This document shows, piece by piece, positions 2,821 to 24,042 of a stretch of 27,505 nt of DNA (positions are counted from its first letter, which is position 1; each line of letters starts with the position of its first letter). The notes under the pieces are model-generated. The model saw only the letters and a program-made list of their open reading frames with translations, made no database searches and was not told where the DNA came from. The DNA lies in IMG/VR virus record IMGVR_UViG_3300031730_000019, positions 1-27,505 of that record; one strand, 5' to 3'. The DNA comes from a virus. The position numbers and the translations under genes are program-made.

Positions 2821-3266
2821 TGCGGGTCTCCCCAGCGATCATCGGCCGGCAGGCTGTCCGAGTACGGAGCCGGCGCGGCCTTGCCTTCCAGCGAAGCCTT
2901 CGCTGCCTTGAACCAAGCGTCGATCTGTCCAGGCGCCGTAATAGTTTTCGCCATGATCGCGGAGCCGATGCAGTTGGAGATGTAGCGCAAGCTCGCTTCC
3001 TCGATGTAAGCCGGCGGCGCAGCAGGGGCCGAGGCAGGCTGCTGCGACGGCGCTTGGCCGTTACCCGGTGGATACCGCCACGCCTCCAGCGTCTTAGCCG
3101 GCTTGCCGTCTGGGAAGGTGAAGGAGCCCTCCTTGATCTCCAGCTTCGTGTTGAGCGGCGGCATCTGGCCGATCTCCTTCGAGAGGAAATACCACTCGCC
3201 CGCAATCTTCGCCTTCGGGTTGCCGTTGCTGGTCTTGCCCAATTCCTGAACCGTTACGATGCTCAT
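2817..3266 (-). CDS. Hypothetical protein, possible OB-fold/ssDNA-binding protein
   Basis: The product has 149 residues. The first ~70 look like a small beta domain (MSIVTVQELGKTSNGNPKAK, then WYFLSKEIG, TKLEIKEGSFTF). A Pro/Gln/Ala linker (about 70-95, QAPSQQPASAPAAPP) is followed by a helical segment and a polar tail ending DDRWGDPQ. This build resembles single-strand DNA-binding proteins, and the gene is coupled to the exonuclease gene by an ATGA overlap, so a role in recombination is plausible. The typical SSB tip DDDIPF is absent, so this is inference. ATG 3266 has a GAGGG site 7 bases upstream. Confidence 0.75.
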   Translation of the reverse strand: MSIVTVQELGKTSNGNPKAKIAGEWYFLSKEIGQMPPLNTKLEIKEGSFTFPDGKPAKTLEAWRYPPGNGQAPSQQPASAPAAPPAYIEEASLRYISNCIGSAIMAKTITAPGQIDAWFKAAKASLEGKAAPAPYSDSLPADDRWGDPQ

Positions 3267-3375
3267 TTTCTGCCCTCAGAATTTCTCTCAATGCATTCCC
3301 GCGCTTGACGTCGCCTTCCATCTTCACCAGCGTTCGCTCAAGCCATTCATTCAATTCCCACTGACGCCGGCTCAT
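3094..3375 (-). CDS. Possible 93-aa ORF overlapping the OB-like gene by 173 bases
   Basis: The frame starts at ATG 3375 in an ATGA overlap with the preceding gene. Its first ~37 residues (MSRRQWELNEWLERTLVKME, then charged helix) look like real phage protein. From 3266 onward it overlaps the next gene out of frame, and the sequence turns into Gly/Gln/Arg-rich text typical of a shadow. Either a real helical protein carries a tail shaped by the overlap, or a base change has moved or removed an original stop near 3266. Without it, bases 3267-3371 would be empty, which is unusual in this compact operon. Confidence 0.45.
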   Translation of the reverse strand: MSRRQWELNEWLERTLVKMEGDVKRGNALREILRAENEHRNGSGIGQDQQRQPEGEDCGRVVFPLEGDRPDAAAQHEAGDQGGLLHLPRRQAG

Positions 3376-4487: not shown

Positions 4488-4506
4488 TTCTCGCTCCGTT
4501 ACCTGT

Positions 4507-4731
4507 TCATGGCCTGTAAGAACCGTCGCCGCTATTGAGGGCTTCACTCACACTGCGCTCCCACGCGGCGTATCCTTCGAGCCGGCGCTGCTGCCATGCG
4601 CACAGATCGCGCAGGTAGCTCAACTCTGAAAGATCGGCGGCGTGATCGCCGAAGAAGTCACGCCCGTTGTAGCGCTCGTGCTTCCAGCCGATCGTTTGCG
4701 GCTCAGTTGGCTTTGGATCTCGCTTACTCAT
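4507..4731 (-). CDS. Small hypothetical early protein
   Basis: The product has 74 residues from ATG 4731. It has a polar N-terminus (MSKRDPKPTEPQTIGWKHER) and then a helical region rich in aromatic residues (ELSYLRDLCAWQQRRLEGYAAWERSV). No good Shine-Dalgarno is seen upstream, so translation may depend on coupling with the methyltransferase gene, which ends 14 bases before it. The function is not recognised. Confidence 0.65.
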   Translation of the reverse strand: MSKRDPKPTEPQTIGWKHERYNGRDFFGDHAADLSELSYLRDLCAWQQRRLEGYAAWERSVSEALNSGDGSYRP

Positions 4732-4745
4732 GATTTGTGCGAGGG

Positions 4746-5534
4746 CTAGGCGGGCCGATAGGTCTGCGCGATGTGTCTCGAGAGCACCAACGGAATCTTT
4801 GCGATCATTGCCGAGGCGCGTTTCCTGGCATTCGACTTCGACCCGTGACGCCGACAGGTTGAGTTCGGATCACTGAACCAGTCACCGCCGATCTTCAAGC
4901 CGTGCTCTGCTGGATTGGTCATGTGCGGTGTATGCACTGGGTTCTGTCCCTTGCCGCTCGTCGTGTTGTGCGCTACGCGAAACCAACTACCGCCTGCGTT
5001 TTTCGTCCCATGAAAATTCGTGGAGCCGTCTGTCCGGTGCGTCACGCCAGCCTTCATCACCTGCCTATCTGGAACCATCGGCATCAGCGCCGGCACGTCG
5101 CCCCAAAGATGGAAGCTGCCGAAGTTCCAGCGCGAGCGACCGACCCATGGCTGAGCTCCACGCACGTTCTCCACGACAAGGGGAATATGCCTGCCGGCCG
5201 CTTCGCTCGCCTCACGCTGGATGCGGAAGCACGCCTCAAACAGCGAGTTATCTGGTGGCGGCAGGGCCTTCGCCTTCTTCCATGGCATTGCGCGGTAGCT
5301 GTAGGCCTGGCACGGTGGACTGGCGACGATCAGCGCTGCAGTCTTGAACTGCTTCCCGTGAAGCGTCAGGACGTCCTGCAGCACCAGCTGCGCCGGATAG
5401 CGCTCATCGCCGTACACGTGCTGTTCAATGTCGAAGCCGATCACGTCATATCCCTCTGCAAGTAAACCTTCAGTCCAGCCGCCAAGACCGCAGAACAGGT
5501 CGATGGCGAGTGGTTTTTCTATGGAGCTGCGCAC
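4746..5534 (-). CDS. C5 cytosine DNA methyltransferase (short phage type)
   Basis: The product has 262 residues, short for this class. It would transfer methyl from S-adenosylmethionine to C5 of cytosine. Motif I is DLFCGLGGWTEGL at 12-24 (cofactor binding). Motif IV is SPPCQAYS at 72-79, with catalytic C75. Motif VI is VENVRG at 121-126. The C-terminal helix IAKIPLVLSRHIAQTY takes the place of motif X. The target-recognition region is small. Start GTG 5534 lacks an obvious Shine-Dalgarno and lies 6 bases after the stop of the 42-aa gene, so coupling is likely. No partner restriction enzyme is visible, so it is probably an orphan enzyme protecting phage DNA from host restriction (inference). 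Confidence 0.9.
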   Translation of the reverse strand: MRSSIEKPLAIDLFCGLGGWTEGLLAEGYDVIGFDIEQHVYGDERYPAQLVLQDVLTLHGKQFKTAALIVASPPCQAYSYRAMPWKKAKALPPPDNSLFEACFRIQREASEAAGRHIPLVVENVRGAQPWVGRSRWNFGSFHLWGDVPALMPMVPDRQVMKAGVTHRTDGSTNFHGTKNAGGSWFRVAHNTTSGKGQNPVHTPHMTNPAEHGLKIGGDWFSDPNSTCRRHGSKSNARKRASAMIAKIPLVLSRHIAQTYRPA

Positions 5535-5719: not shown

Positions 5720-5748
5720 ACTATAGGCGCGCCTTATACACGCGTCAA
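5720..5748 (-). promoter_or_regulatory. PL: leftward early promoter
   Basis: Read leftward, the -35 is TTGACG (5748-5743), the spacer is exactly 17 bases, and the -10 is TATAGT (5725-5720). This is close to the sigma-70 consensus. Transcription would start near 5713, leaving about 44 untranslated bases before the 42-aa gene. Two operator copies cover it, one over the spacer and -10 and one ending on the first base of the -35. Confidence 0.85.
5723..5737 (-). promoter_or_regulatory. Operator OL1 (over PL -10)
   Basis: Read leftward this is ATAAGGCGCGCCTAT, a near-palindrome. It differs at one of 15 positions from the operator at 6204-6218. Its final TAT is the start of the PL -10 box, so bound repressor would block polymerase. 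Confidence 0.75.
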
Positions 5749-5762
5749 TAGGGCAAACTTAT
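5748..5762 (-). promoter_or_regulatory. Operator OL2 (upstream of PL -35)
   Basis: Read leftward this is ATAAGTTTGCCCTAT, keeping the outer ATAAG and CCTAT half-sites. Its last T is the first base of the PL -35. It lies 25 bases from OL1, start to start, which matches the 24-base spacing at the PR operators. The inner bases are more degenerate than in the other copies. Confidence 0.6.
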
Positions 5763-5825
5763 TATTTTTCGAAAAGACGTGCCAATTGGGCCAAAACCGG
5801 CCTATCGGTCAGTCCGAAGCTGGGA

Positions 5826-6179
5826 TTACTGGCGGGGTTCGCCCCGGAGAAAGTCGATATAGCGCTCTGCTTGGCGCTTCAATTCGGGGTCTAGTGCCTG
5901 GAAAGTCTGCACGAACGATTCGGCGTCTTGAATTACGGCAGGGTTCTTTGGGCCGCGCTCGGTGTAGAGCCATTCGACGCAGACATTGAGCGTCTTCGCC
6001 AGAAGAAGGACTTGCGAATGAGCTGGCGCGCGGCCCGGTAGGCCCCATTCAAATACGGCTGGCTGGCTCACGCCAGCGATCTTAGCGAGGCGTACCTGGG
6101 TAGGCCTTTCTCTTGGGTAGCGTTCTTTCAGCGCCTCTAGGGCGCGCTCCAAGAACGTTCGTTCGCGTGTTTTGGCCAT
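5826..6179 (-). CDS. Short CI-like phage repressor (HTH only)
   Basis: The product has 117 residues from ATG 6179. An upstream extension to 6461 would cross the operators and the cro gene and is rejected. An XRE/CI-type helix-turn-helix spans about residues 27-60 (TQVRLAKIAGVSQPAVFEW). It is followed by a regulator-like helix (LLLAKTLNVCVEWLYTERGP) and a helical C-terminus (SFVQTFQALDPELKRQAERY). The gene is divergent from a Cro-like gene, with paired operators between them, so it is probably the lysogeny repressor. At 117 residues it has no LexA-type self-cleaving domain, so SOS induction through RecA-stimulated cleavage is not expected. Confidence 0.82.
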   Translation of the reverse strand: MAKTRERTFLERALEALKERYPRERPTQVRLAKIAGVSQPAVFEWGLPGRAPAHSQVLLLAKTLNVCVEWLYTERGPKNPAVIQDAESFVQTFQALDPELKRQAERYIDFLRGEPRQ

Positions 6180-6200
6180 GGACCAATTCTCAGCGAATGT

Positions 6201-6229
6201 CCTATAAGGCGCCCCTATTGCATATTCAT
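6201..6229 (-). promoter_or_regulatory. Possible repressor promoter (PRM-like)
   Basis: Read leftward, a -10-like TATAGG (6206-6201) lies 17 bases from a poor -35 (ATGAAT, 6229-6224). The repressor ATG is 22 bases further on. A weak promoter touching the operators would fit autoregulation, as with lambda PRM. The match to consensus is poor. Confidence 0.3.
6204..6218 (+). promoter_or_regulatory. Operator OR copy overlapping PR -35
   Basis: ATAAGGCGCCCCTAT is a near-palindrome with one mismatch to OL1. Its last T is the first T of the PR -35 (TTGCAT), exactly the arrangement of OL2 at PL. It lies between the repressor start and PR, so it may affect both promoters. Confidence 0.75.
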
Positions 6230-6245
6230 AAGGCAATCCTATACC
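6218..6245 (+). promoter_or_regulatory. PR: rightward early promoter
   Basis: The -35 is TTGCAT (6218-6223), the spacer is 16 bases and the -10 is TATACC (6240-6245). Its position relative to the two operator copies reproduces that of PL to within one base. Predicted initiation at about 6252 lies only 2-3 bases before the cro ATG, so the cro message may be leaderless or nearly so. Confidence 0.7.
6228..6242 (+). promoter_or_regulatory. Operator OR copy over PR -10
   Basis: ATAAGGCAATCCTAT matches the other copies except in the three central bases. Its final TAT starts the PR -10, as OL1 does at PL. It is 24 bases, start to start, from the other OR copy. Confidence 0.75.
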
Positions 6246-6254
6246 CTCGGAGTT

Positions 6255-6470
6255 ATGCAAGCGCTCCGCTCCTACCTCGAAAGGACCAATACCACCCAAA
6301 CCACATTCGCGAAACGCGTCGGCGTAAGCCAACCAACGATTGCGAATCTGGTGAACGGAGTTCACTCGGCGTCGGCCGATCTGCTGAAGAGAATCGCGAG
6401 AGAAACAGGTTGTAGCGTGGATGAGCTGTTGGCTGACGACGCAGCCGTGCGTCCTGGACATGTTGCGTAA
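6255..6470 (+). CDS. Cro-like HTH repressor
   Basis: The product has 71 residues. The helix-turn-helix is clear at about residues 14-40: TTFAKRVGVSQPTIANLVNG, followed by ASADLLKRIARETGCSVDELL. This is typical of small Cro-type proteins (YdaS/XRE-like group). It reads rightward from PR, divergent from the CI-like gene, the lambda cI-cro layout. GGAG lies only 2 bases before the ATG and may not be in the transcript if PR starts near 6252. The likely role is to repress the repressor promoter and tune PR and PL during lytic growth (established for Cro, inferred here). Confidence 0.85.
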   Translation: MQALRSYLERTNTTQTTFAKRVGVSQPTIANLVNGVHSASADLLKRIARETGCSVDELLADDAAVRPGHVA

Positions 6471-23544: not shown

Positions 23545-24042
23545 ATGACTATCGCAGTTTCACGCGAGGCCGTCTCGTATGGGAGTCCTGATGGTGCATT
23601 GCTGCTCGGTGCAGCACGTCAGGTCATCTCCGGAGTCGGCGCAACTCGTACCCTGCTTACCAAGGAGTCGGGCGCTCTGTGCCTGTTCGATGCGGCAACC
23701 GGGGCCATTTTTACCTTGCCGGCGCCAACGGCCAATAACATCGGAATCTACTACGACTTCCTTGTTACGGTCAGCGTCACCAGCAATGCGCACAAGGTCA
23801 TCACTGATGCGGCTACCACGTTCATTGTGGGCGCTGTGACCATGGTGACCATTGCCACTGCCTCCCCGGCGGGCTTCTCCGCGAATGGCACGACCATTCG
23901 GGCGCTCTCTGCGGCAGGTACCACCACCGGTGGATTGATCGGCGAGACCTATCGTCTGCAGCTTCTCAATACCACTCAGTGGGGCATTTCCGGTGTGTGC
24001 GTGGGTTCGGGCACCATCGTTACGCCATTCGCTACTTCGTAA
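23545..24042 (+). CDS. Head-decoration-like protein downstream of coat
   Basis: The product has 165 residues from ATG 23545, with CGGAG 7 bases upstream. A start at 23506 lies inside the coat gene and is rejected. The sequence is beta-rich and small-residue-rich (MTIAVSREAVSYGSPDGALL, then LCLFDAATGAIFTLPAPTAN and YYDFLVTVSVTSNAHKVITD). Small proteins of this style after the coat gene often coat the head surface. This is inference from position and composition, and P22 itself lacks one here. Confidence 0.68.
   Translation: MTIAVSREAVSYGSPDGALLLGAARQVISGVGATRTLLTKESGALCLFDAATGAIFTLPAPTANNIGIYYDFLVTVSVTSNAHKVITDAATTFIVGAVTMVTIATASPAGFSANGTTIRALSAAGTTTGGLIGETYRLQLLNTTQWGISGVCVGSGTIVTPFATS

Follow-up and report, generated by a model that had tools for sequence, protein, structure and literature searches.

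In phage lambda, OR3 is the textbook device by which CI is limited and Cro is allowed to win. Several described systems come closer to the locus considered here in repressor, operator or transcript. RacR, the repressor of the Rac region of E. coli, binds TTAGGC/GCCTAA repeats (PMC5700373) and has been reported as an octamer (PMC11014345). The restriction-modification controller C.Csp231I recognises the 15-bp sequence CTAAG-N5-CTTAG (PMC4321490). In PY54, both cI and cro are expressed from leaderless mRNAs whose starts have been mapped (PMC4488713), and the paaR2 transcript of CP-933P, with a mapped start, is leaderless as well (PMC8630535).

The present locus lies in an IMG/VR virus record of 27,505 bases, which was analysed over its whole length (hereafter, the window) and which encodes a P22-type portal and coat protein. 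Judged from its sequence and by comparison with related phages, the locus is very probably a lysis/lysogeny switch of the lambda kind, in which four 15-bp sites of the window form the full set of operators, shared by CI and Cro.

Operators and promoters of the window

An earlier note on this DNA had described four copies of a 15-bp operator at PL and PR, and all four were found without mismatch (Table 1). They are the sole exact matches to ATAAG-N5-CCTAT in the 27.5-kb window, whereas dinucleotide shuffles gave a mean of 0.01 matches and a maximum of 1. The overlap with the promoters that had been pointed out holds at PL and PR alike, in that the upstream site shares the first T of the -35 and the spacer site shares the TAT of the -10. 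Re-measurement returned the same spacings between copies, 25 bp at PL and 24 bp at PR. The 117-aa and 71-aa proteins to which binding had been ascribed are indeed present as divergent HTH genes, the latter as the first gene of the right operon.

Table 1. Positions of operators, promoter elements and genes in and around the immunity region of the window
Feature	Position	Strand	Sequence	Remark
C5-cytosine methyltransferase-like gene	4746..5534			early in left operon, under predicted PL control
PL -10 hexamer	5720..5725	-	TATAGT	10/12 sigma-70 match, 17-nt spacer
OL-spacer operator	5723..5737	-	ATAAGGCGCGCCTAT	between PL -35 and -10; exact 15-mer match
PL -35 hexamer	5743..5748	-	TTGACG	17-nt spacer to TATAGT
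OL-upstream operator	5748..5762	-	ATAAGTTTGCCCTAT	ends on first -35 base
Terminator-like hairpin, cI end to PL	5781..5801	-		weak, near shuffle background
cI-like repressor gene, 117 aa	5826..6179	-		P22-c2-like HTH and short helical C-terminus, no Peptidase_S24
Predicted cI -10	6186..6191	-	GAGAAT	-12..-7 from start codon
OR-upstream (inner) operator	6204..6218	+	ATAAGGCGCCCCTAT	ends on PR -35; exactly 24 nt before cI start
PR -35 hexamer	6218..6223	+	TTGCAT	16-nt spacer to TATACC
OR-spacer operator	6228..6242	+	ATAAGGCAATCCTAT	ends in TAT of PR -10
PR -10 hexamer	6240..6245	+	TATACC	16-nt spacer
cro-like gene, 71-aa HTH_3 protein	6255..6470	+		starts 9 nt after PR -10

Judged by consensus, PR of the window (TTGCAT/TATACC) is weak, and the promoter scan did not report it. 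When the four operators were scored with a matrix from which the window had been left out, the OL-upstream (17.6) and OR-spacer (17.5) sites ranked above the OL-spacer (13.7) and OR-upstream (12.7) sites, and a scan of the region with this matrix gave no further site of comparable score beyond the four. A lone site scoring as high as the operators, ATCGGCGAGACCTAT at 23938-23952, lies inside a head-region gene and is probably due to chance.

A plan common to 13 phages

Two close relatives, G001 and G002, encode CI proteins 72% and 70% identical, and Cro proteins 79% and 58% identical, to those of the window. The earlier note had made its reading depend on the presence of the motif in near relatives, and both phages carry all four sites at the same promoters. 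The OR-spacer site of G002 has one mismatch, while the OL-upstream 15-mer is unchanged in G002 and differs by one base in G001. Among the three closest phages, two of the cores are preserved, GCAAT of the OR-spacer site and TTTGC (in one case TTTAC) of the OL-upstream site, and the remaining two vary.

More distant members came from two scans. A DNA-only scan, in which the viral collection was searched for TARG-N5-CYTAT sites in pairs, returned L037, L038 and L142-L145, plus many Rac-type enterobacterial prophages. In the phages L037, L038 and L143-L145, the frames on either side of the sites encode relatives of both window proteins, CI and Cro, an outcome of the kind of motif search that had been suggested. 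A protein-only scan was run with a four-member CI alignment, a nine-sequence alignment being too diverse for the purpose, and returned L150-L153, which then showed the same operator plan. Because these four were found by protein alone and were not chosen by operator, they constitute an independent test. The set of 13 phages consists of the window, L002, L003, L017, L037, L038, L143-L145 and L150-L153. The layout is therefore present in at least twelve phages besides the window, of which two are close relatives and ten are more distant. Pairwise CI identity among them is mostly 20-55%, with 68-72% in a close trio. An integrase occurs in 8 of 12 records, which is consistent with temperate phages; the window record itself gave no integrase match, and the phage would be temperate by analogy with its relatives rather than on account of an integrase of its own.

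Searches of the phage collection gave no match with the DNA of the region and none with CI at E 1e-5, only weak ones appearing at E up to 5, and a protein scan of genome contigs gave no relative. One viral match, L016, was rejected because the phage is rich in AT and the motif is no commoner at its locus than in shuffled sequence. The CI-like proteins of L157-L168 (33-45% identity over about 42-64 aa; 27% in L159) show no such sites and fall outside the family. Pattern matches in genome contigs were about as numerous as the chance estimate; of six, only L023 was read, and it is unrelated. At 1574-1613 it has a tandem duplication of a CTAAGTGTCACCTAT-like site, and the adjoining frame is one that we take to be BrnT/BrnA-like toxin-antitoxin. 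The motif can therefore arise elsewhere.

Two distances are fixed across the family. The OR sites are 24 bp apart in all 13 phages, and from the end of the inner OR site to the start codon of cI there are exactly 24 nt, again in 13 of 13, where the start in newly found members was taken as the codon fitting the protein alignment (some frames have alternative upstream starts). A third operator in the position of OR3 would not fit between the sites and cI in any of them. Spacing at PL is 24, 25 or 26 bp in each of the 12 phages whose PL sequence was covered, and the TTG of the -35 is joined to the upstream site throughout the family, all promoters having been called by consensus only. Since the CI proteins are so divergent outside the close trio, these exact distances are not simply a result of recent shared ancestry. 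The two-sided, lambda-type arrangement with two operators per side, first proposed for the window alone, is thus a family-wide plan, and its geometry is that of lambda OR2 and OR1, 24 bp apart.

Most members have four sites per genome. No more than four exact sites were counted in any of the 12 related records, which are metagenomic and possibly fragments, and the backwards pattern, serving as control, occurred in 0 of 12. The half-sites ATAAG and CCTAT that had been given for the operator hold in the window, but the family consensus is the symmetric ATAGG-N5-CCTAT, in which A is tolerated at position 4 of the half not overlapping a promoter hexamer; ATAAG in the window is a variant of the half-site that does not double as a promoter element. 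The plan is not without exceptions. Exact copies are missing from the L150 and L153 records, whose sites all carry one or two mismatches, and several half-sites deviate in L150-L153 (ATCGG, CCGAT, GTAGG). L145 has a degraded inner OR site, and its cro lies 31 nt from the PR -10.

The cI promoter, the repressors and a proposed mechanism

With a cI transcript beginning at the ATG, the centre of the inner OR site would fall at -32, so that the site would cover the -35 region. The predicted cI -10 has A-11 and T-7 conserved in 13 of 13 phages; position -12 is C or G, and on reading the sequence a -35 hexamer could not be recognised. A weak, leaderless cI promoter is therefore predicted in all 13. 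With only 24 nt between the inner OR site and cI, and with OR3 lacking, this promoter would run through the inner site. Shine-Dalgarno matches are scarce upstream of cI (p = 5e-5) and cro (1e-5) when compared with 20 other window genes. The cro start follows the PR -10 hexamer by 7 nt in 7 of the 13 phages, by 7-13 nt in 12 and by 9 nt in the window (6240-6257). The lack of Shine-Dalgarno sequences and the short distance from the PR -10 to cro lead us to predict leaderless mRNAs for cI in all members and, exactly or nearly so, for cro in most; the seven relatives with cro exactly 7 nt after the -10 make a leaderless cro mRNA likely.

The CI-like protein gave profile matches to P22 c2 (2e-6) and, over the HTH and the C-terminal helix, to C.Csp231I (4e-5). 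Its AlphaFold model (pLDDT 85) has the C.Csp231I-operator complex and P22 c2 among its top folds, at modest E-values (best 3e-3). Peptidase_S24 was absent from the nine CI proteins scanned and from all of the records (0/12), and RecA-stimulated self-cleavage is therefore not expected.

The recognition helices of CI and Cro are alike, the Q of the VSQPxV motif being invariant in both nine-sequence sets. Together with the four sites per genome of most members, this makes it unlikely that only one of the two proteins uses the full set while the other has its own sites or uses just one, even though the Cro of PY54 binds a single OR3 site (PMC4488713). Much less probable still is a role of the 117-aa protein as a C.Csp231I-class restriction-modification controller of the left-operon methyltransferase instead of a lysogeny repressor. 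Such a role would fit the shared 15-bp 5-N5-5 format, the full-length profile similarity to C.Csp231I (PMC4321490) and the presence of a C5-cytosine methyltransferase in the left operon. However, the sites are also found at the divergent cro gene and the replication operon, the left early operon carries recombination genes as well (for a RecE-like exonuclease and a NinB/Orf-like protein), the left operon of G002 opens with a 112-aa protein and not with a methyltransferase, and most relatives have an integrase; the controller role was rejected on this gene context. That the sites resemble one another because of promoter elements (TTGAC, TATA) and common ancestry, and not because a repressor binds them, is hardly credible, for although the CCTAT half overlaps the -35 and the -10, the ATARG half holds no promoter element, is kept across repressors mostly 20-55% identical and stays while the five central bases vary.

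The model in which CI and Cro share the four sites takes these sites, their spacing, the promoter overlap, the family-wide conservation and the lack of S24 from the sequences. In it, the 117-aa CI-like and 71-aa Cro-like proteins would bind the same 15-bp sites in competition. At each of the two promoters, PL and PR, the -35 would be covered by a dimer bound to the upstream site, and the region up to the -10 by one bound to the spacer site. Because the PR/PL layout is that of lambda OR2/OR1, occupancy is expected to repress, shutting off the early left and right operons as OR2 and OR1 do in lambda. The -35 region of cI would lie inside the inner operator, and its mRNA would be leaderless. In the lysogenic state CI would sit on its preferred OR-spacer site, with PR blocked and the cI promoter still usable, and cI would be turned down once the inner site is occupied by Cro or by CI in excess. 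Activation of cI from -32 is possible. The order of the matrix scores, with OL-upstream and OR-spacer on top, is in line with the order of CI sites proposed. We infer the binding by both proteins, the leaderless starts, and the CI site preference with the turn-down of cI.

Comparison with known switches

The RacR/YdaS/YdaT region of Rac resembles the family in its short repressor, in the TAGG...CCTA halves of its repeats and in a PL pair that is spaced by 25 bp and overlaps the promoter in the same way. It differs in its three or four OR repeats, one of which overlaps the racR start codon, as against two sites only in the family, and in that YdaS takes the role of Cro. A locus of this kind was seen in L142, where the gene for a RacR-like repressor of 173 aa has on either side a pair of TAGG-N5-CCTA sites spaced by 24 bp and, as in Rac, a further site that overlaps the repressor start codon (4498-4536, 4559-4573 and 6256-6294). 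In L025, four sites stand at 3223-3325 as two adjacent pairs (24 and 25 bp) beside a YdaS-like gene, with no repressor gene between the two pairs.

C.Csp231I shares the 15-bp site format, the profile match through the HTH and C-terminal helix and a place among the top PDB folds. It belongs to a restriction-modification operon with two sites separated by 18 bp and no Cro partner, whereas the ATARG-N5-CYTAT sites described here lie in a phage immunity region. The immB regions of the telomere phages PY54, N15 and phiKO2, and PaaR2/YdaS of CP-933P, have a divergent repressor and Cro in common with the family; PY54 has one operator, N15 three and CP-933P three to four, and their site sequences differ from those of the family. 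The earlier note had regarded the sequence specificity as new, which does not stand: the 15-bp 5-N5-5 format and the TAAG/TAGG core are known from C.Csp231I and overlap in sequence with the RacR repeats, which makes the specificity only partly new. What was not found in the open-access papers searched, where absence is no proof of novelty, is two sites per side combined with the exact geometry and ATAGG-N5-CCTAT.

With lambda, the family shares divergent cI and cro genes, operators at PL and PR of which those at PR are shared with the repressor promoter, an upstream site joined to the -35, a second site reaching into the -10, PR sites 24 bp apart and, as predicted here, a leaderless cI. Lambda differs in having three operators per side, with OR3 next to cI, in place of two 15-bp operators of another sequence, in an OR2 centred at -42 from the cI start, the position from which lambda CI activates, where the inner site here would be at -32, and in a self-cleaving S24 repressor where the family has one of 117 aa without S24. 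The 24-nt distance to cI, the predicted leaderless mRNAs, the missing self-cleavage domain and a cI promoter not placed as in lambda all go beyond the earlier note.

A natural family with repressors mostly 20-55% identical does without OR3 and keeps two distances exact to the base, and it offers a compact and clearly delimited case in which to ask for the minimum that a switch requires. As no self-cleavage domain is present, induction is expected by something other than SOS cleavage. For work on recognition rules, the operator sets of the 13 phages should be useful when combined with the HTH sequences that belong to them. Tentatively, with a confidence somewhat short of even, we consider the family to represent a class of minimal lambda-like switch that is widespread and so far undescribed. 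Its marks would be two operators per side, leaderless divergent cI and cro, a short repressor lacking the self-cleavage domain and a rigid 24-24 geometry. In this class the inner operator would lie on the -35 region of a cI promoter without a -35 of its own, and the same two sites would carry cI activation (or self-limitation) and cro repression from a position, -32, that differs from that in lambda. Set beside the systems above, the switch is a real variant and probably a new combination, in which the operator format and core were already known.
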